Shown here in pieces: positions 2,780 to 10,545 of a DNA stretch of 10,788 bases. Origin of the DNA: Pseudomonadota bacterium (GTDB taxonomy: Bacteria; Desulfobacterota; DSM-4660; Desulfatiglandales; B25-G16); assembly GCA_015223015.1 (NCBI GenBank), contig JADFWK010000265.1, positions 1-10,788 of the forward strand, given 5' to 3'. Within the stretch, counting starts at the first letter, position 1. Every line of letters begins with the position of its first letter. Below the pieces are notes generated by a model. It did no database searches, had not been told where the DNA came from, and saw nothing but the letters and a program-made list of their open reading frames with translations. The position numbers and the translations under genes are program-made.

Positions 2780-5506
2780 ATGAAAGATAAAGATAAGACA
2801 AAAGAGCAACTCGTAGATGAATTGATTACTCTGCGCCAGCGGGTTACCGATTTAGAAGCAGGGGCCCCCGAGCACACACAGGCAGAAGAAACGTTGAGAG
2901 AATCAGAGGAGAAATTCAGGACCCTTGCAGAAAATTCACCTAACATGATTTTTATCAATATGAAGGGCAAAATCGTGTATGTCAATGACAAAGCTGCAGA
3001 GATTACAGGGTATACCAAGGAGGAGTTTTACTCCCCAGATTTCGACTTCCTTACCTTGATCGCACCGGAATATAGAGACCTATTAAAGGCAAATTTCAAC
3101 AGGCACATGAGAGCCGAAGAGCTCCCTGCCTATGAATATGCGCTTATCACGAAAGAGGGTAAGAGAGTTGAGGTACTGCTTACCTCAAGATTGGTAACAT
3201 ACCGTGGAGAGCATACTATCCTCGGGACTGTAACGGACATCACCATGCGCAAGCGCGCGGAAAGTGCCTTGCGCGAGAGCGAAGAACGTTACCGAAATCT
3301 CTTTGAGCAGTCCAAAGATGCTATCTATATCACCACCCGAGAAGGCAAACATGTTGAAGTCAATCAATCTTTCTTGGATCTTTTTGGCTGCAGTGGAAAA
3401 GAGTTAACAAAATTGAAGGCTCAAGACATATATGCTAATCCCACCGACCGAGCCAGGTTCCAGCAAGAGATAGAAAAAAACAGTTCGGTCAAAGATTTTG
3501 AAGTGAAACTTCGCAAGAAAGATGGAACAGAGATGGATTGTCTGCTCACTGCGACTGTGAGGCAAGCGGATGATGGGAGTATTCTCGGATACCAGGGTAT
3601 CATCCGCAATATTAGCGAGCGGAAGACCTTGCTGGAAATGTTGCGCAAATACGAGTTTATTGTGAATACCTCCAAACAATTTATGACCCTCATCAACAGA
3701 GACTATACCTACGAGGCTGTGAATGAAGCATATTGCCTCGCCCATAACAAATCGCGAGAGCAAGTCCTTGGTAAAACCGTGCCGAAAATCTGGGGAGAAG
3801 AGAGGTTCAAAAGAGTCATTAAGCCCTATTTAGATAAGTGCTTTGCCGGCAACGAGACCCATGACCAGAAGTGGTTTGAATTTACTGGGAAAAAGCAGAA
3901 GTATTATGACGTAAGCTATTACCCATACTACGGGAACAAATCAGATGTGACCCACGCTGTAGTCATTACTCACGACATGACAGAGCGCAAACACGCAGAG
4001 GAGGCGCTTCAGGAAAGTGAAGTCAAATTCCGGAATCTGTTCGACCTTTCTCCTCAGGCTATTGCTGTTGCCGACAGGAAGACGGGCAGATTAATTGAGG
4101 TCAACGACAAGTTCTGTGAACTGACCCAATACGCTCGAAAGAAGGTCCTCGGAAAAAGCCTTTCGGAATTGCACTTTTTCTCTGAGGGCGAGAGGGATGC
4201 GTTTCTAAAAGAGCTTCAGGCATCAGGGGAACTTGACGGATTGGAGATCCAGCCCGAAGCCAAGGACGGCTCTGTTCTCAACGTAATCATGTTCGCTAAA
4301 CTCATTCGGATCACAGGCGAAGAATTTGTACTTACGGCATTCCTCGATATGTCTGACCAAAAGCGGCTCGAAGCACAACTTCAACAGGCACAAAAAATGG
4401 AAGCTCTTGGCACTTTGGCCGGCGGCATTGCTCACAACTTCAACAACCTTCTCATGGGTATCCAGGCAAATGCCTCCTTAATCCTGCTGGACATTGACCC
4501 TAATGATCCGAATTATGATAGGCTTATGAATATTGAAAAAATGGTTCAAAACGGGTCCAAACTCACCAAACAACTGCTTGGGTATGCCAGGGAGGGAAGA
4601 TATGAGATCAGGCCCACGAGTCTGAATCGATTGGTGAAAGAAATCTCTGGCACCTTTGGCCTGACCAAAAAGGAGATCAAAGTTCATCAGAAGCTTGCCA
4701 GAGACCTATTTGCAATAGAGGCAGACCAAGGGCAGATTGAGCAGATTCTGTGGAACCTGTATGTAAATGCCGCAGATGCCATGCCGGCAGGCGGAGACCT
4801 CTTCCTGGAAACCATGAATGCCACCCATAAGGATATTACAGGCAAACCCTCCAAAATAAAGCCTGGGGACTATGTGCTACTAACCCTTACCGATACAGGC
4901 ACAGGTATGGATAAAAAGACCGTAGGACGCATCTTTGATCCCTTTTTTACCACTAAGGGTATGGGCAGAGGCACCGGCCTCGGATTGGCCTCTGTTTACG
5001 GGATCGTAAAAAGCCATGGTGGTACTATTTCTGTCTCGAGCAAAAAGGGTAAAGGCACTACCTTTAGTCTTTATCTGCCAGCCTCAAAAAGGCAAGCAAT
5101 GAAAGAAGGCAGAGGGTCTGATAAGTTTGTACCGGGTAAAGAAACTGTTCTTCTCGTGGATGATGAAGATATGATTCTCGATGTTGGCACACAGATTCTG
5201 GAAAAAATGGGACACAAGGTCATAAAAGCCAAGAGTGGACAAAAGGCAATAGATATTTACGAAAAGCATAAGGATCTGATCGAGCTTGTTATCCTTGATA
5301 TGATTATGCCGGGTGTAGGTGGAGGTGAAGCCTATGACAGGATAAAAACAATCAACCCAAAGGTAAAAGTCCTTCTTTCAACTGGTTACAGCATAAATGG
5401 ACAGGCAACCGAGATTCTGGAACGCGGTTGCAACGGCTTTATCCAGAAACCTTTTAGAATGAAAGAACTGTCTCATAAGATAAGAGAGGTTCTGGACAAA
5501 GAGTAG
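2780..5506 (+). CDS. Four-PAS hybrid sensor histidine kinase with receiver
   Basis: This is a 908-aa protein without signal peptide or membrane segments, so probably a cytoplasmic sensor. The order is: an N-terminal coiled coil (about 1-45); PAS1 (42-160); PAS2 (165-283); PAS3 (287-404); PAS4 (412-529); a dimerisation/phosphoacceptor helix with GIAHNFNN (H552); an ATPase domain with N-box LYVNAADAM (N663), G1 DTGTGM (705-710), F-box IFDPFFTTK and G2 GRGTGLGLA; and a receiver with D794, D795, phosphoacceptor D840, T868 and K890. All residues for autophosphorylation and His-to-Asp transfer are present. No DNA-binding or enzymatic output follows, so a partner must receive the phosphate. The PAS ligands are unknown; no haem or flavin signature is evident. 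The start at ATG 2780 follows AGGGT. The kinase-receiver half is a paralogue of the one at 8458-10545. Confidence 0.94.
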   Translation: MKDKDKTKEQLVDELITLRQRVTDLEAGAPEHTQAEETLRESEEKFRTLAENSPNMIFINMKGKIVYVNDKAAEITGYTKEEFYSPDFDFLTLIAPEYRDLLKANFNRHMRAEELPAYEYALITKEGKRVEVLLTSRLVTYRGEHTILGTVTDITMRKRAESALRESEERYRNLFEQSKDAIYITTREGKHVEVNQSFLDLFGCSGKELTKLKAQDIYANPTDRARFQQEIEKNSSVKDFEVKLRKKDGTEMDCLLTATVRQADDGSILGYQGIIRNISERKTLLEMLRKYEFIVNTSKQFMTLINRDYTYEAVNEAYCLAHNKSREQVLGKTVPKIWGEERFKRVIKPYLDKCFAGNETHDQKWFEFTGKKQKYYDVSYYPYYGNKSDVTHAVVITHDMTERKHAEEALQESEVKFRNLFDLSPQAIAVADRKTGRLIEVNDKFCELTQYARKKVLGKSLSELHFFSEGERDAFLKELQASGELDGLEIQPEAKDGSVLNVIMFAKLIRITGEEFVLTAFLDMSDQKRLEAQLQQAQKMEALGTLAGGIAHNFNNLLMGIQANASLILLDIDPNDPNYDRLMNIEKMVQNGSKLTKQLLGYAREGRYEIRPTSLNRLVKEISGTFGLTKKEIKVHQKLARDLFAIEADQGQIEQILWNLYVNAADAMPAGGDLFLETMNATHKDITGKPSKIKPGDYVLLTLTDTGTGMDKKTVGRIFDPFFTTKGMGRGTGLGLASVYGIVKSHGGTISVSSKKGKGTTFSLYLPASKRQAMKEGRGSDKFVPGKETVLLVDDEDMILDVGTQILEKMGHKVIKAKSGQKAIDIYEKHKDLIELVILDMIMPGVGGGEAYDRIKTINPKVKVLLSTGYSINGQATEILERGCNGFIQKPFRMKELSHKIREVLDKE

Positions 5507-5570
5507 GTAGCACTTCTACAAATCTCGCACGAGCATTTCCTTTGGCCCCATATGGCCTGTTCTGCCTAAG

Positions 5571-5649
5571 AAACCCGAATCCGCTTCAGAAAACCCAAAC
5601 CACATACTATACCACTATCTTAGTAGCCCGTTTTTAGGAAACCCAAACC
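5571..5649. repeat. Repeated AAACCCAAACC motif upstream of the riboswitch
   Basis: AAACCCAAACC occurs exactly at 5591-5601 and 5639-5649. A degenerate copy, AAACCCGAATC, lies at 5571-5581. They sit in the spacer between the PAS kinase stop and the riboswitch. They could be protein-binding sites for the riboswitch promoter. Spacings of 20 and 48 nt are not regular helical turns, so the role is uncertain. Confidence 0.35.
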
Positions 5650-5713
5650 TAGCCCTTTGGTGGTAGGCTATCGCTAAAAAAATCGAAAAGACTAAAGTTT
5701 TTCTCTGGGGATG

Positions 5714-5742
5714 CCGATATGCTATATGAATTGTTGTAAAAT
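5714..5742 (+). promoter_or_regulatory. Possible promoter of the riboswitch transcript
   Basis: TAAAAT (5737-5742, 5 of 6) would place the start point near 5749, just before the first pairing strand of the aptamer, which is the expected arrangement. The -35 candidate CCGATA (5714-5719) is weak at 17 bp. A GG-N10-GC pair (5709-5722) allows a poor sigma54-like reading as an alternative. Confidence 0.3.
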
Positions 5743-5750
5743 GTTGCGAT

Positions 5751-5843
5751 TTTGCTGAAGGGCAAACCTTCCGAAAGGTTGGGACGCAAAGCCTCCGACT
5801 TAGATCAGCTTGAGGTGATAAGGCAGCGGGGTTGCTAAGCAAA
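5751..5843 (+). promoter_or_regulatory. Cyclic-di-GMP-I (GEMM-I) riboswitch aptamer
   Basis: The conserved core of the GEMM-I class is plain. AGGGCAAACC (5759-5768) is followed by a GAAA tetraloop (5773-5776), then GGGACGCAAAGCC (5781-5793), then GCGGGGTTGC (5826-5835). The closing stem pairs TTTGCT (5751-5756) with AGCAAA (5838-5843). The third helix can start with GCCT (5791-5794) against AGGC (5821-5824). The G residues before CAAACC are kept. Known cGAMP-sensing members carry an A at one of these positions, so c-di-GMP is the likelier ligand. The tetraloop stem has tandem U-U mismatches or uses a shifted AACCTT/AAGGTT register. The element controls transcription through the adjoining terminator and so governs the 115-aa gene at 5937 and probably genes beyond. 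Confidence 0.92.
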
Positions 5844-5849
5844 TGAAAC

Positions 5850-5888
5850 AAATAAACCCGCTTCTTGCCCTCAGAAGTGGGTTTATTT
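5850..5888 (+). terminator. Riboswitch expression platform: hairpin terminator
   Basis: A 16-bp stem (5850-5865 with 5873-5888) contains a single G-U pair and closes a 7-nt loop, TGCCCTC. The 3' side ends in TTTATTTAT, which supplies the U-rich release tract. It begins 7 nt after the aptamer. Part of its left arm (CCCGC, 5857-5861) can instead pair with GCGGG (5826-5830) of the aptamer core. Ligand binding would lock up that core strand and should favour this terminator, which suggests an OFF switch. The direction of control is inference. Confidence 0.9.
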
Positions 5889-5936
5889 ATACAATTTCTC
5901 CAAATGATCAACATCTCGCAACAATGGTGAGATCAC

Positions 5937-6284
5937 ATGAAAATTACAGAAAACGCCAGCTACATTAGGCAACAACAGCCTGGGCAATTCAGGAGACCAG
6001 AAGACGCTAAGGCACCAGCCACTCATATGAACGACCAAAAGCTGGTTACCATAAGGGGACAGAAAGGATACTCTGTTTACGTCAGTAACGAGAAGCTCGT
6101 AGCTCTGGACAGGTTGATAGAGCCTGATTTCCCCAAGCTCTTTGATTTTGATGCCGGGGTGCAATTCAGTCTTGAAAAACTGAATCGGACTCACAGGGAT
6201 GAAGACATTAACCCACAATATGACAAGTCCGCAAAAACAGAGATGACGACCAAAAAGGAATGGATCATTGATCAGTGGGCCTGA
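5937..6284 (+). CDS. Hypothetical 115-aa protein under c-di-GMP riboswitch control
   Basis: I do not recognise a family. The protein is hydrophilic and probably cytoplasmic, with no signal peptide, membrane segment or cysteine. Residues 1-30 are Gln/Pro/Ala-rich and look disordered. Residues 33-75 (from about KLVTIRG to FPKLFDF) have alternating hydrophobic positions that suggest a small folded core. The tail is charged. The start is ATG 5937, preceded by GGTGAG (5926-5931) at 5 nt, and it lies 48 nt after the terminator hairpin. Being the first gene behind a c-di-GMP riboswitch, it is likely tied to motility, adhesion or a related c-di-GMP programme. That is context only. It could also be a leader gene for the CNB protein downstream. 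Confidence 0.62.
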   Translation: MKITENASYIRQQQPGQFRRPEDAKAPATHMNDQKLVTIRGQKGYSVYVSNEKLVALDRLIEPDFPKLFDFDAGVQFSLEKLNRTHRDEDINPQYDKSAKTEMTTKKEWIIDQWA

Positions 6285-6305
6285 AACACTGGGAGGCACA
6301 AGATC

Positions 6306-6422
6306 TTGAGCATGAAAAGCGGTATTGAGTTCAGAGGAGACCAACATCCCGGCGAATTTTTTGGTGGCTCTATACAACGCTGTTTGAACCTGAAAGTGAT
6401 TCCTATAACATCACTCACATAG
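6306..6422 (+). CDS. Possible 38-aa small ORF (doubtful)
   Basis: A frame opening with TTG 6306 (or ATG 6312) runs to TAG 6420-6422. GGAGG (6292-6296) lies 9 nt before the TTG. The predicted product has one Cys, a Gly/Phe-rich middle and no known motif. It would fill the gap between the 115-aa gene and the CNB gene, ending 24 nt before the latter. Length and non-ATG start make chance likely. Confidence 0.17.
   Translation: MSMKSGIEFRGDQHPGEFFGGSIQRCLNLKVIPITSLT
6395..6415. promoter_or_regulatory. Inverted repeat AGTGAT-N9-ATCACT before the CNB gene
   Basis: Perfect 6-bp arms (6395-6400 and 6410-6415) flank TCCTATAAC, which contains a -10-like TATAAC (6404-6409). It lies 31 nt before the CNB gene start. 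The spacing does not match the CRP site (GTGA-N6-TCAC) or the FNR site (TTGAT-N4-ATCAA). No well-spaced -35 accompanies the TATAAC. Candidate operator only. Confidence 0.28.
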
Positions 6423-6446
6423 ATTGATGAAAAGGAGAACATATTC

Positions 6447-6836
6447 ATGAAAAGCAAAACATACAAACCCGGAGAGATCATAATCCAAGAAGGGGAGATG
6501 GGAAGAGACCTCTATGTTTTAAATGACGGTGTTGTTGAAATATCGACTAAGGAAGACAATGGAAGTTTTATTCTGAACCAAATTGAGCCCCCGCAAATTC
6601 TTGGAGAACTTTCCTTTTTGACTGGTCTTCCGAGGACAGCGACAGCAAAAGCGAAGACAAATGCAGAGGTATATATCTTCAAATACGAGAATTTAGAAGG
6701 GCAAATTGCGGAATTACCGAAAAGCATTAAGCCCATCATGAGTACACTTATTAATCGTGTTAGGGCTCAGGATAGAAGGATTATAGAGTTGGAAGAGGAG
6801 ATGTTAACGTTAAAGAGAAAACTGCTAACATTATAA
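6447..6836 (+). CDS. Single-domain cyclic-nucleotide-binding (CNB) protein
   Basis: This 129-aa protein is one CRP-like CNB domain plus a C-terminal helix. The beta-roll starts at YKPGEIIIQEGE (6-17), with YVLNDGVVEIS (23-33) next. The phosphate-binding cassette is ILGELSFLTGLPRTATAKA (51-69): G53, E54, R63 and T64 correspond to the residues that hold the cyclic phosphate and ribose in CRP and PKA, so nucleotide binding is plausible. Residues about 95-127 form a charged helix with heptad-like Leu/Ile spacing, likely a dimerising coiled coil. There is no HTH, so this is not a CRP-type DNA-binding regulator. It may signal by protein contact. The start follows AAGGAG (6432-6437) at 9 nt. It probably shares the riboswitch-controlled transcript with the 115-aa gene. 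Confidence 0.9.
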   Translation: MKSKTYKPGEIIIQEGEMGRDLYVLNDGVVEISTKEDNGSFILNQIEPPQILGELSFLTGLPRTATAKAKTNAEVYIFKYENLEGQIAELPKSIKPIMSTLINRVRAQDRRIIELEEEMLTLKRKLLTL

Positions 6837-7256: not shown

Positions 7257-7351
7257 GAACAGGGTGCTGTATCTAGTTATTGCCCCTAAGGAGGAAGCGG
7301 CCCGCAAACTCCTGGGCTATTGAAGAATTACGGATTGATTGGAGAAATCTG

Positions 7352-8203
7352 ATGGCCGAAAAATCCCTTATTGAGCTCATTGAGGAAACACTTGATCGTG
7401 AAGAGATTGAACTCCCTATCTTTAATCAAGTCGCCCTGAAACTCCAGCAGCAGGTTACAAGGGGCGATTACAGCCTGGCTGAGATTTCCAAAATCATACA
7501 TAAGGATCAGGGACTTGCCTCTGACGTCTTAAAAATGGCCAACTCCGTTTTTTACGCTGGTGTGAAACCTGTCAAAACCATTCAGGAGGCTACCGTGCGT
7601 CTGGGGGGAAAGACTATTTTCAATCTGGTCACGGCAGTAACCCAAAAGCAGCTCTACCGCGTTCACAAAAAGAAATATGATTACTGGGCCAAACCGCTCT
7701 GGAGCCATGCCCTTGGTGTTGCCTATGCTGCTCGCTGGCTTTCACGTCACCTGGGTATGGATCAGTTTGTTGACGAAGCATTTATGGCAGGTCTGCTTCA
7801 TGACACTGGAAAGCTGCTTCTCCTCAAGGTAATCGAGGATCTGGATGGATCTGAAGTAACCCAAGAAGATATCTCAAAAGATCTCGTTGATGATATCTTG
7901 GAAACCATGCACACCTATCAGGGGGAAAGGCTCATGAGACGCATGAATATCCCGGATGTCTATTGCAATGTAGCCAGAATGCACCATGATCCAGAGGTTA
8001 GTGCTGAAGATAGCGTCCTAAACCTAGTAAGATTGGGAAATCTTGCTTGTCGTAAGGTTGGAATTGGGCTTAAACATGATCCTAAGCTCCTCCTTGAGAC
8101 TACATCAGGGGTGATAAACCTCAATGTCACGGAGCGTGTATTGGCTGGCTTGTACGTGAGGTTGGAAGAATATGATCAATGGCTGGGGAAGTTTTTGGCT
8201 TAA
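7352..8203 (+). CDS. HDOD domain signalling protein
   Basis: This 283-aa cytoplasmic protein has an HDOD domain of the HD superfamily (about 20-215). The HDOD start is LPIFNQVALKLQQQV (21-35), followed by DQGLASDVLKMANSVFY (52-68) and the helix around TVRLGG. HD-type metal residues are partly visible as H119 and H150-D151 in GLLHDTGK, with MHHDPE at 210-215. The GYP motif of c-di-GMP phosphodiesterases is absent, so it should not be called an HD-GYP enzyme. HDOD proteins usually act as signalling scaffolds near kinases and motility genes. I chose ATG 7352, which has GGAG (7341-7344) at 7 nt. An in-frame TTG at 7280 would add 24 basic residues that do not look like domain sequence. The hybrid kinase gene follows after 254 nt. 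Confidence 0.92.
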   Translation: MAEKSLIELIEETLDREEIELPIFNQVALKLQQQVTRGDYSLAEISKIIHKDQGLASDVLKMANSVFYAGVKPVKTIQEATVRLGGKTIFNLVTAVTQKQLYRVHKKKYDYWAKPLWSHALGVAYAARWLSRHLGMDQFVDEAFMAGLLHDTGKLLLLKVIEDLDGSEVTQEDISKDLVDDILETMHTYQGERLMRRMNIPDVYCNVARMHHDPEVSAEDSVLNLVRLGNLACRKVGIGLKHDPKLLLETTSGVINLNVTERVLAGLYVRLEEYDQWLGKFLA

Positions 8204-8457: not shown

Positions 8458-10545
8458 TTGAACACGGTATACATCATTGACGGGCCCAATAAGGGCACAT
8501 CCTTTAACCTGAATGATGGTATCACTACCATCGGGAGAGCCACTGACAACGATATCTGTCTCTCAGATAGAGGGGTTTCCCGACATCATGGCAAGTTTCT
8601 CAGAAAGGATGATGGGCTCTTTGTTGTAGATCTGAACAGCTTGCACGGCGTTTTTGTTGATGGTGAGAAGATAGAGCCGGACCAAGAAGTGGCTCTCACA
8701 AAAGAGAGCAGTGTGCTTATTGGAAAAACGCTTCTCTCATTTCAAAAGAAACTGTCTAGGGAAAAAGCTAATCAACCATATCCCGTCTATGTGCAGAGAA
8801 AGCTCTTTGATACAACCACGCCCCTGTTGGTAAAGGATAGCACCAGGAGCTATGTCCGCAATTTGGAGTTATTGCTCAAGGTGTCAAATATCTTTGCTCA
8901 ATCCCTTAATATCGATGAGCTTCTCGGTGAGGTAGTAGATCAGATTTTTAGTCATTTGAAGAGAATCGATCGTGGAGCCATATTACTGCTAAACCAGGAA
9001 ACCGGCATCTTGAAAGAGGCGGTTTCAAGGACCAGAATGGAGGACAAAGAAGGCCTCTTTTCTAAAATCAACTATAGCAGGACGATCGTTAACAGAACTA
9101 TACAGCAAGGTAAACCTGTAATGATGTCCGATACCAGCAGCGTGGACAAGGCTGACCTCTCCAACAGCATGGAAAAAATGCATATCATGTCCGTTATGTG
9201 TGTGCCCCTCAAGTACAAAGATAAGGTTGGGGGAGTTATTTATGTGGATTCTCTTGGGGTGCCTGAAGGCCTCGGAAAGAATGACCTCCAGTTACTTGCA
9301 GGCTTGGCCAATACCGCGGCTATTGCCATAGAGAATGCCCGGCTCTATGAGGCGCTGAAGCAAGAGCTAGCTGAGCGCAAGCGCGCAGAAGAAGAAAAAG
9401 CAAAACTGGAGACCCAATTCCAGCATGCCCAAAAGATGGAAGCCCTGGGTACCCTGGCGAGTGGCATCGCCCATAATTTCAATAACATCCTCATGGGTAT
9501 ACAGGGCTACGCTTCGTTAATGCTCATGGACATTGACTCCGGTCATCCCCACTACAAAAGACTAAAGGGCATTGAGCAGCAGGTTCAGAGCGGGTCTACC
9601 CTGACCAAGCAGCTCCTCGGATATGCACGGGAGGGGAAGTATGAGGTCAAACCCATTACCCTGAACCAGATGGTGAAAGAAGTTTCTGACACCTTTGCGA
9701 TGACCAAGAAGGATATCACAGTCCATCTAGACCTTGCTGAAAACCTGCATATAATAAAGGCAGATCAAGGGCAGATCAGACAGACGCTGATGAATCTGTA
9801 TGTAAACGCTGCAGATGCCATGCCTCGTGGTGGAGATATTTTCCTGAAGACTGTGAATGTTGCGGATAGGGATATGAAAGGTAAGCCCTATACACCGAAG
9901 CCAGGAGACTATGTCCTGCTAACCATTACTGACACGGGCATGGGCATGGACAAAAACACCACGGAGCGTATCTTTGATCCGTTCTTTACCACCAAGGGTA
10001 TGAGCAAAGGAACCGGTCTCGGACTGGCCTCGGTGTACGGCATTATCAAGGCCCATGGCGGATACATTGATGTAGACTCCGAGAAGGGACGGGGAACAAC
10101 CTTCAGTATCTATCTGCCAGCCTCAGATACGGAAGGAGGAAAACAGAAGGAAGTCGCCGCAGAAGTACTCAAAGGTAAAGAAGGTGTCCTCCTCGTAGAC
10201 GATGAGGATGTGATTATTGATGTTAGTCGGGAGCTTCTTCAGACACTTGGCTACGAGGTTTACGTGGCCAGAAATGGGAAAGAAGCTATTGACACCTATA
10301 AGGCAAACGAGGACAAGATTGATATGGTCATCCTGGATATGGTTATGCCGGATATGGGCGGCGGGGAGGCGTATGATATAATGAAGGGCATAAACCCTAA
10401 CATTAAAGTCCTCCTCTCAAGTGGGTACAGCATAGATGGCCAGGCAGCCGAGATACTAGATCGGGGGTGCAATGGTTTTATCCAGAAGCCCTTTAATATT
10501 ACGCAGTTATCTCAGAAGTTAAGGGAGATTCTGGAAAAGCAATAG
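8458..10545 (+). CDS. FHA-GAF hybrid histidine kinase with receiver
   Basis: This is a 695-aa soluble protein. The order is: FHA domain (3-97) with IGR (25-27), SRHH (41-44) and DLNSLHGVFVDG (58-69); GAF domain (about 136-297); a charged coiled coil (298-325); a phosphoacceptor helix with GIAHNFNN (H339); an ATPase with N450, DTGMGM (492-497), IFDPFFTTK and KGTGLGLA; and a receiver with D581, D582, phosphoacceptor D627, S655 and K677. FHA domains bind phosphothreonine proteins, so Ser/Thr kinase input is plausible; the usual Asn before Gly is H63. The GAF ligand is unknown. The start is TTG 8458. A stop lies upstream at 8419 and no in-frame ATG precedes the first FHA strand. GGAAGG (8447-8452) gives a ribosome site. 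The kinase-receiver half closely matches that of the PAS kinase. I see no promoter in the 254-nt spacer before it and no terminator after it. Confidence 0.94.
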   Translation: MNTVYIIDGPNKGTSFNLNDGITTIGRATDNDICLSDRGVSRHHGKFLRKDDGLFVVDLNSLHGVFVDGEKIEPDQEVALTKESSVLIGKTLLSFQKKLSREKANQPYPVYVQRKLFDTTTPLLVKDSTRSYVRNLELLLKVSNIFAQSLNIDELLGEVVDQIFSHLKRIDRGAILLLNQETGILKEAVSRTRMEDKEGLFSKINYSRTIVNRTIQQGKPVMMSDTSSVDKADLSNSMEKMHIMSVMCVPLKYKDKVGGVIYVDSLGVPEGLGKNDLQLLAGLANTAAIAIENARLYEALKQELAERKRAEEEKAKLETQFQHAQKMEALGTLASGIAHNFNNILMGIQGYASLMLMDIDSGHPHYKRLKGIEQQVQSGSTLTKQLLGYAREGKYEVKPITLNQMVKEVSDTFAMTKKDITVHLDLAENLHIIKADQGQIRQTLMNLYVNAADAMPRGGDIFLKTVNVADRDMKGKPYTPKPGDYVLLTITDTGMGMDKNTTERIFDPFFTTKGMSKGTGLGLASVYGIIKAHGGYIDVDSEKGRGTTFSIYLPASDTEGGKQKEVAAEVLKGKEGVLLVDDEDVIIDVSRELLQTLGYEVYVARNGKEAIDTYKANEDKIDMVILDMVMPDMGGGEAYDIMKGINPNIKVLLSSGYSIDGQAAEILDRGCNGFIQKPFNITQLSQKLREILEKQ

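Follow-up and report, generated by a model that had tools for sequence, protein, structure and literature searches.

Results

A c-di-GMP-I riboswitch precedes an orphan gene

The window, by which we mean the whole stretch of 10,788 bases that was analysed, holds a c-di-GMP-I (GEMM-I) riboswitch and an orphan gene between two hybrid histidine kinase genes (Table 1). The two flanking kinases have similar kinase-receiver halves, and the downstream gene order of the window is kept at three other loci (L003, L005 and L006).

Table 1. Coordinates of the genes and regulatory features in the window
Feature	Position	Strand	Remark
PAS hybrid histidine kinase	2780-5506		upstream of the riboswitch
Sigma-28 (FliA)-type promoter, TAAAGTTT-N12-GCCGATAT	5693-5720	+	16/16 to the consensus
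c-di-GMP-I (GEMM-I) aptamer	5751-5839	+	RF01051 covariance-model match over gathering score
AGCGGGGTT, 3' strand of the aptamer	5825-5833	+	putative antiterminator; can pair with the 5' arm of the terminator
Intrinsic terminator	5850-5888	+	by folding; hairpin of -19.8 kcal/mol, T-rich 3' side
AACCCGCT, terminator arm	5855-5862	+	within the terminator; complementary to 5825-5833
115-aa orphan protein	5937-6284	+	ORF with ATG start; 26 homologues; no Pfam/NCBIfam match over cut-off
Cyclic-nucleotide-binding-domain (cNMP-binding) protein	6447-6836		downstream of the 115-aa ORF
96-aa ORF without family			downstream, between the cNMP-binding and HDOD genes
HDOD protein	7280-8203		downstream
FHA-GAF hybrid kinase	8458-10545		downstream

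The aptamer is the sole Rfam match at gathering score in the window. It spans model positions 1-87 of 87 of RF01051 at 63.2 bits (E 8.7e-11; gathering score 35), which bears out the clear aptamer core reported by the first-pass annotation of this DNA, for which a covariance search had been proposed. The clear terminator that the annotation placed beside the aptamer is likewise recovered by folding; a simple consensus scan of 5400-6500 listed no terminator and no sigma-70 promoter. Its span of 5751-6284 for the switch and the gene was correct, but omitted the promoter at 5693-5720. In the window's own genome (G000, a draft of 1.74 Mb that is 68.5% complete), all 131 of 131 candidates were scored and the aptamer of the window is the one c-di-GMP-I match.

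By a position mapping counted by hand, we take G5761, A5788 and C5835 to be the ligand contacts G20, A47 and C92. GGC stands at the start of P1a in the window and in the other 12 aptamers of the family described below, and by this mapping the specificity base, position 20, would be G in all 13. The structure line of RF01051 shows which base is left unpaired just ahead of the P1a pair: it is the first G of GGC, and the family aptamers thus carry G at the specificity base. An earlier classing of L010, L057 and L058 as possible cGAMP types, which had counted the base before GGC as position 20, was dropped after this line was consulted. For five family aptamers (L005, L010, L057, L058 and L060) the best listing was RF03167 (c-di-GMP-I-GGC), with L005 under the gathering score of that model. 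Because RF01051 is also over its cut-off for all five, and because an A stands in GACGCAAAG at L005, L010 and L060, the variant was not assigned to them.

The orphan protein is conserved and predicted to be disordered

A search of 5.8 billion proteins returned 27 rows including the query. The other 26 are 45-80% identical to it and 113-119 aa long, except one of 157, and are called hypothetical, unnamed or uncharacterised where they are named at all. Residues 1-45 of a family protein (P0016) returned 15 rows, all from the 115-aa family and six of them new; the lowest identity between a family member and the window's protein is 36%. None of 34 members meets a cut-off in Pfam or NCBIfam, in agreement with the earlier statement that the product has no recognised family. 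Scattered weak matches in these scans (adenosine deaminase in three members, best 0.0019) were treated as chance. The annotation had allowed that the reading frame might prove unconserved; instead there are 26 homologues, and the comparison with the distant member at L010 indicates purifying selection (dN 0.44, dS 1.25). Judged by this conservation, the ORF is a gene. Within the genus dN/dS is about 0.8-1.3 over few differences, which makes this a fast-evolving protein.

Three parts of the protein are conserved: the start, IRQQQPGQF..ED.K.P....N..KL, the motif PKLFD at residues 66-70, and a DQWA-type end. No membrane segment was seen by eye. The structure prediction proposed for the 115-aa product brought no fold, since AlphaFold2 models built with 34 and 42 sequences reached a pLDDT of only 53.1 and 52.3. 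The protein is therefore predicted to be disordered, with the proviso that low pLDDT may also stem from a shallow alignment.

The family recurs behind aptamers

We collected 14 family loci, comprising the window, eight from a scan of GTDB contigs, four from 389 genomes around one carrier genome (G086) and one from a 395-genome sample of the phylum. Thirteen of the 14 have an aptamer immediately upstream in the same orientation (the window, L003, L004, L005, L007, L008-L010, L057-L060 and L100); they are not independent, since one genus accounts for four of them and one close group for three. At the fourteenth, L006, a run of 100 N takes the place of residues 1-43 and of the sequence upstream of them, the gap is preceded by an unrelated gene, and the Rfam scan lists no match there; with its gene start cut off, this locus was left out of the promoter count and counted as an aptamer miss. 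At the loci computed, 72-123 nt separate the aptamer from the start codon; only at L007-L009 is the gap larger, 416-417 nt, with another small ORF between. The neighbouring genes differ between lineages, giving about eight settings by eye. One locus, in a genome that is 97% complete (G527), was found after the pattern had been noted; the single c-di-GMP-I match in that genome (150 of 188 candidates scored) stands in front of the family gene.

The family itself is patchily distributed. Within the order to which the window belongs, five of 85 genomes have it, every one a member of the window's genus; a search at class level covers the same 85 genomes. It further occurs in two genomes of the 395-genome phylum sample, the window's own included, and in eight of the 389 genomes around G086. 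In that last set, the matches of four of the 12 matching genomes (G449, G279, G332 and G155) were weak and partial (E 0.0016-0.009) and were set aside as chance; L061, among the rows dropped, has no aptamer. The annotation had asked whether homologues recur behind GEMM switches and had proposed the protein as an undescribed component of a c-di-GMP programme; the recurrence just described and the score of the window's aptamer lend support to both.

A sigma-28-type promoter lies upstream of each family aptamer

The sigma-28 consensus of E. coli and Bacillus consists of TAAAGTTT and GCCGATAW at a spacing of 11-12. The promoter of the window, 30 nt upstream of the aptamer, is the only place on either strand of the window that scores 13/16 or more against it. 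Its spacing of 12 is one above the E. coli spacing of 11 and is also found at four of six fliC-type genes of family-carrying genomes. Judging from the motif, this promoter would be used by FliA. For comparison, the FliA promoter of Bdellovibrio is given as TTAAG-N16-CCGATA in the passages of PMC3627812 available to us.

All 13 family loci that have an aptamer also have a sigma-28 site of 13-16/16 before it. At 12 of them, together with the leader of a FlgM paralogue described below, 12-31 nt lie between the end of the site and the aptamer, and the spacing is 12 in 11 of these 13. When each of the 13 leaders was subjected to 200 dinucleotide shuffles, the observed score was reached only for L058 (1.5%), and nine of 1104 background windows reach 13, true sites included. 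The remaining family locus, L100 in G527, found after the pattern had been noted, has a site of 15/16 that lies 2 nt before its aptamer. In a positive control, sites of 12-14/16 lie within 350 nt of six flagellin genes of the fliC type, and eight FlgL-type rows score 9-12; the genes in this control were typed by their N-termini, and two of its 16 loci (L070 and L080) gave no row. PF00669, which marks the flagellin or FlgL type, occurs in 11 of 13 genomes and was not found in G001 and G087 in a set consisting mostly of drafts; in G003, G085, G088 and G243 only matches of FlgL strength are listed (58-72 bits).

The aptamer can pair with its terminator

In the window, the duplex between the 3' strand of the aptamer and the terminator arm has an energy of -12.9 kcal/mol, which is matched by 3.6% of 500 shuffled arms. 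A terminator is present in all 13 leaders tested, 12 from the family and one from the FlgM paralogue. In nine of these 13, an antiterminator pairing is evident between the 3' strand AGCGGGGUU (AGCGGGGCU in L005) and the 5' arm AACCCGCU, each pairing being marginal when taken individually, as shuffled arms equal it at a rate of 0.006-0.164. The pairing is weak in L010, L057, L058 and L060 (0.18-0.85 against shuffles).

A FlgM paralogue with the same kind of leader has a matching N-terminus

One carrier genome, G085, encodes a protein with a FlgM domain (PF04316, E 5.5e-10) behind a second c-di-GMP-I aptamer, with one ORF between. The leader of this paralogue has an aptamer of 79.5 bits and a sigma-28 site of 15/16. 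The first 41 residues of the paralogue are 46% identical to the window's protein (BLASTP 4e-10), and another pair of FlgM paralogue and family member reaches 56% identity (BLASTP 1e-14). In hhalign, the family and the subfamily of FlgM paralogues (A3) align with a probability of 99.0% over 42 columns at 45% identity. The remainders of the 115-aa proteins and the FlgM paralogue give no alignment. This link comes from direct comparison and not from database search: a protein-database search with the FlgM paralogue returned six FlgM rows only and none of the 115-aa family, and the search with residues 1-45 of P0016 had no FlgM paralogue among its rows. PF04316 is not listed for any of the 34 family members at E up to 1.

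The classical FlgM of the same genomes was rejected as a direct relative (hhalign 0.6%). It was found elsewhere in seven of nine genomes and not in G003 and G087, in a set that is mostly drafts, and no aptamer was seen in the stretches of 2.3-3.2 kb fetched around its genes. The comparisons indicate that the 115-aa family is not FlgM, but that it has one module in common with a FlgM paralogue whose gene is controlled in the same way.

Promoter and riboswitch are paired at further genes

The four family-carrying genomes G085-G088 have at least 29 c-di-GMP-I matches. With the four family aptamers left out, 19 of the 25 aptamers listed there have a sigma-28 site of at least 13 within 130 nt upstream, a threshold that was chosen after the family sites had been seen. 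On the opposite strand the count is one of 25, and in background windows five of 722 (Fisher 2.8e-28, uncorrected for kinship); in two of the 19 cases the site is 81-84 nt away from the aptamer. With the threshold unchanged, 12 of 23 non-family aptamers listed in four other genomes (G151, G243, G281 and G343) have such a site, compared with none of 28 on the opposite strand and four of 968 background windows, the five family loci being included in these controls. In two genomes of the window's own genus (G002 and G004), none of six other aptamers has one. Riboswitch counts per genome are a lower bound in 12 of 13 genomes, in which 150 first-look candidates were scored; G001 and G000 were scored in full. 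A pattern search for promoter plus aptamer core over the 389 genomes found at least 10 places in nine genomes, a lower bound because the pattern gap of 14-15 fits spacings of 10-11 and not the 12 of most family sites; a control pattern found none. One of the places, L084, looks like a chance match.

In the genomes that bear such pairs, the targets include a FliD-like protein (L020), Flg_bbr_C proteins (L035 and L092) and further small orphan ORFs. At L036 (riboswitch 1501-1591, ORF 1703-2452) and its look-alike L042, a gene of the sigma-70 family that by eye resembles fliA follows a sigma-28-type site of 15/16 and an aptamer, which suggests a c-di-GMP-gated autoregulation of sigma-28. An orphan family of 77-88 aa as called, with the motif VVE[GK]KVNPV, is found behind a 13-16/16 site and an aptamer at L026, L106, L108 and L120 in four genomes. 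A third orphan family, of 109-131 aa as called and starting with INNTLQSL or INSVSESL, follows a 14-15/16 site and an aptamer at L025, L030, L093 and L115, the kinship of L115 to the other three being judged by eye only. No homology was seen for the ORFs that come first after the switches at L008 and L052. Genes for proteins resembling multihaem cytochromes also stand behind a sigma-28-type site and an aptamer, at L032 and L041 (by Pfam, with CXXCH motifs) and at L126, L128 and L129 (CXXCH by eye), hinting that the coupled regulon reaches beyond flagella.

Other aptamers in these genomes are arranged differently. Thirteen with a GCCAAA or GCCAAC core, in which the P1a pair is seemingly swapped (L028, L033, L038, L043, L094, L099, L109, L116, L118, L119, L121, L124 and L127), all score below 13 for a sigma-28 site and precede other kinds of gene; they are possibly a second, differently wired subclass. 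In an informal comparison, many promoterless aptamers have the GCCAAA core instead of GGCAAA, and some aptamers with GGCAAA are promoterless as well. At L039 and L044 (G086:C320:13944-14196), tandem c-di-GMP-I aptamers stand before one gene; only the first has a sigma-28-type site upstream, of 14/16, and the second scores 10/16.

Discussion

In flagellar systems, sigma-28 and FlgM usually time the order of gene expression, and c-di-GMP times the change to a sessile life. Our preferred reading, held with moderate confidence, is that the orphan gene is a class-3 (late) flagellar gene that is gated by both sigma-28 and c-di-GMP and encodes a disordered, perhaps exported regulator related to FlgM. 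RNA polymerase carrying sigma-28 (FliA) would start at the promoter of the window as soon as the sigma factor has been released; whether the terminator is read through would then depend on the c-di-GMP-I riboswitch. With ligand bound, the aptamer would leave the terminator free and the gene would be OFF; without ligand, the 3' strand of the aptamer would pair with the terminator arm and the gene would be read. Swimming cells in which c-di-GMP is low would thus be those that make the protein. The gating has support in the sequence itself, and the action of the protein is what we infer from it. The protein may be a small disordered relative of the FlgM paralogue in which the sigma-28-binding half is replaced by a PKLFD/DQWA-type tail, and it may act as an export-linked flagellar regulator or checkpoint protein. 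The first-pass annotation had named motility, adhesion, pili and matrix as likely roles; the sigma-28-type promoter and the N-terminus shared with the FlgM paralogue narrow these to flagellar motility.

FlgM is exported after completion of the hook, according to the passages of PMC9307174 available to us, and the N-terminus that the family shares with the FlgM paralogue therefore suggests a flagellar partner or export. The same source describes type III export signals as lacking a conserved sequence (PMC9307174). Since the N-terminus of the family is strongly conserved, it may bind a partner rather than mark the protein for export.

The switch is probably OFF at high c-di-GMP, because in nine of 13 leaders the aptamer's own 3' strand can open the terminator; with a pairing that is marginal against shuffles and four leaders that lack a clear one, the direction is something we infer. 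The same nine leaders make an ON switch rather unlikely in our judgement. In such a switch, c-di-GMP would permit transcription, and the protein would be made as sigma-28-active cells meet rising c-di-GMP, serving as a brake on swimming at the onset of surface life. A sigma-28-driven gene tied to a sessile signal would suit such a brake, the antiterminator is weak in four leaders, and closely similar aptamers act as ON or OFF switches in the passages of PMC9262584 that we could consult. Concerning the ligand, cGAMP binding by GEMM-Ib aptamers of Geobacter, from the same broad bacterial group (passages of PMC6456294 and PMC8835794), raises the question of whether the aptamer senses 3',3'-cGAMP and not c-di-GMP. 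We find this improbable, because the 13 family aptamers have G at position 20 by the hand-counted mapping and the change A20G converts a cGAMP aptamer to c-di-GMP selectivity, as reported in a part of PMC6456294; the specificity base thus makes c-di-GMP the more likely ligand.

The protein might also have no regulatory role and be a secreted or structural accessory: a late substrate of flagellar export that comes to lie in the filament, on its surface or outside the cell, and whose production the switch merely stops in sessile cells. The same promoter type and switch do stand before FliD-like and FlgE/F/G-like genes, and a small, predicted disordered protein in which no membrane segment was seen by eye would fit. 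However, no flagellin-, hook- or cap-like structure is predicted, the Pfam and NCBIfam scans give no kinship to structural proteins, and the N-terminus is common to a paralogue of an anti-sigma factor, so we regard an accessory role as unlikely. It is very improbable that the whole association reflects the shared descent of one conserved block, with a protein unconnected to motility. The crowding of four of the 13 loci into one genus and of three into one close group would be expected from shared descent, as would the lack of a sigma-28 site at all six other aptamers in the window's genus, but the gene occurs in about eight neighbourhoods with members down to 36% identity, an out-of-sample locus lies in another family (G527, L100), and the sigma-28 motif is also found at fliC-type genes. 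More tentatively, and as a possibility that we would not yet rely on, several Desulfobacterota lineages could have a doubly gated regulon in which sigma-28 promoters lead into c-di-GMP-I riboswitches gene by gene, a fliA-like gene included. It would yield undescribed small disordered proteins, the FlgM-related family among them, as exported checkpoint factors that link flagellar completion to the level of c-di-GMP.

By sequence, the 115-aa proteins are a new riboswitch-bound family, placed in the flagellar programme by promoter type and N-terminal kinship, and the orphan family thereby gains a concrete hypothesis as FlgM-related, late flagellar and c-di-GMP-gated. The sigma-28 and c-di-GMP controls appear in series on one short leader, an arrangement repeated over many genes in some genomes, so that the coupling of swimming and sessile programmes can be tested with a single reporter. 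The same promoter-riboswitch control also provides a list of sister orphan families, and, as it is also seen in other members of the group, it suggests that part of the swimming programme has yet to be studied. Among the open-access PMC titles found, none described such a coupling of sigma-28 promoters and c-di-GMP-I riboswitches for these bacteria, or the 115-aa protein.

The Cd1 c-di-GMP-I riboswitch of Clostridioides difficile reportedly governs a large early flagellar operon. In contrast, the genes here stand singly behind separate sigma-28-type promoters, an aptamer belonging to each, and the one studied is an orphan. Both systems combine an aptamer with a terminator, and the passages of PMC9262584 at hand describe an OFF control of flagellar genes by Cd1. 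Like FlgM (PF04316), the 115-aa protein is small and predicted to be disordered, and its residues 1-42 are common to the A3 paralogues, one of which stands behind a c-di-GMP-I aptamer. It differs from FlgM in having an unrelated conserved tail and no PF04316 domain, and from classical FlgM in that the stretches fetched around the classical genes contain no aptamer. The GEMM-Ib cGAMP riboswitches of Geobacter are also aptamers of the GEMM-I class with cytochrome genes among their targets, but their ligand base is A20, and FliA promoters do not figure in the passages of PMC6456294 and PMC8835794 available to us. As far as the parts of PMC3627812 at hand allow the comparison, the closest known case is Bdellovibrio, in which FliA is proposed to govern the attack phase, FliA promoters govern many non-flagellar genes, and a c-di-GMP riboswitch RNA (merRNA) is abundant in the same life phase. 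The merRNA has no conserved ORF behind it and no FliA promoter marked in Table 2 of that paper (PMC3627812), whereas here promoter and riboswitch are joined before protein genes.
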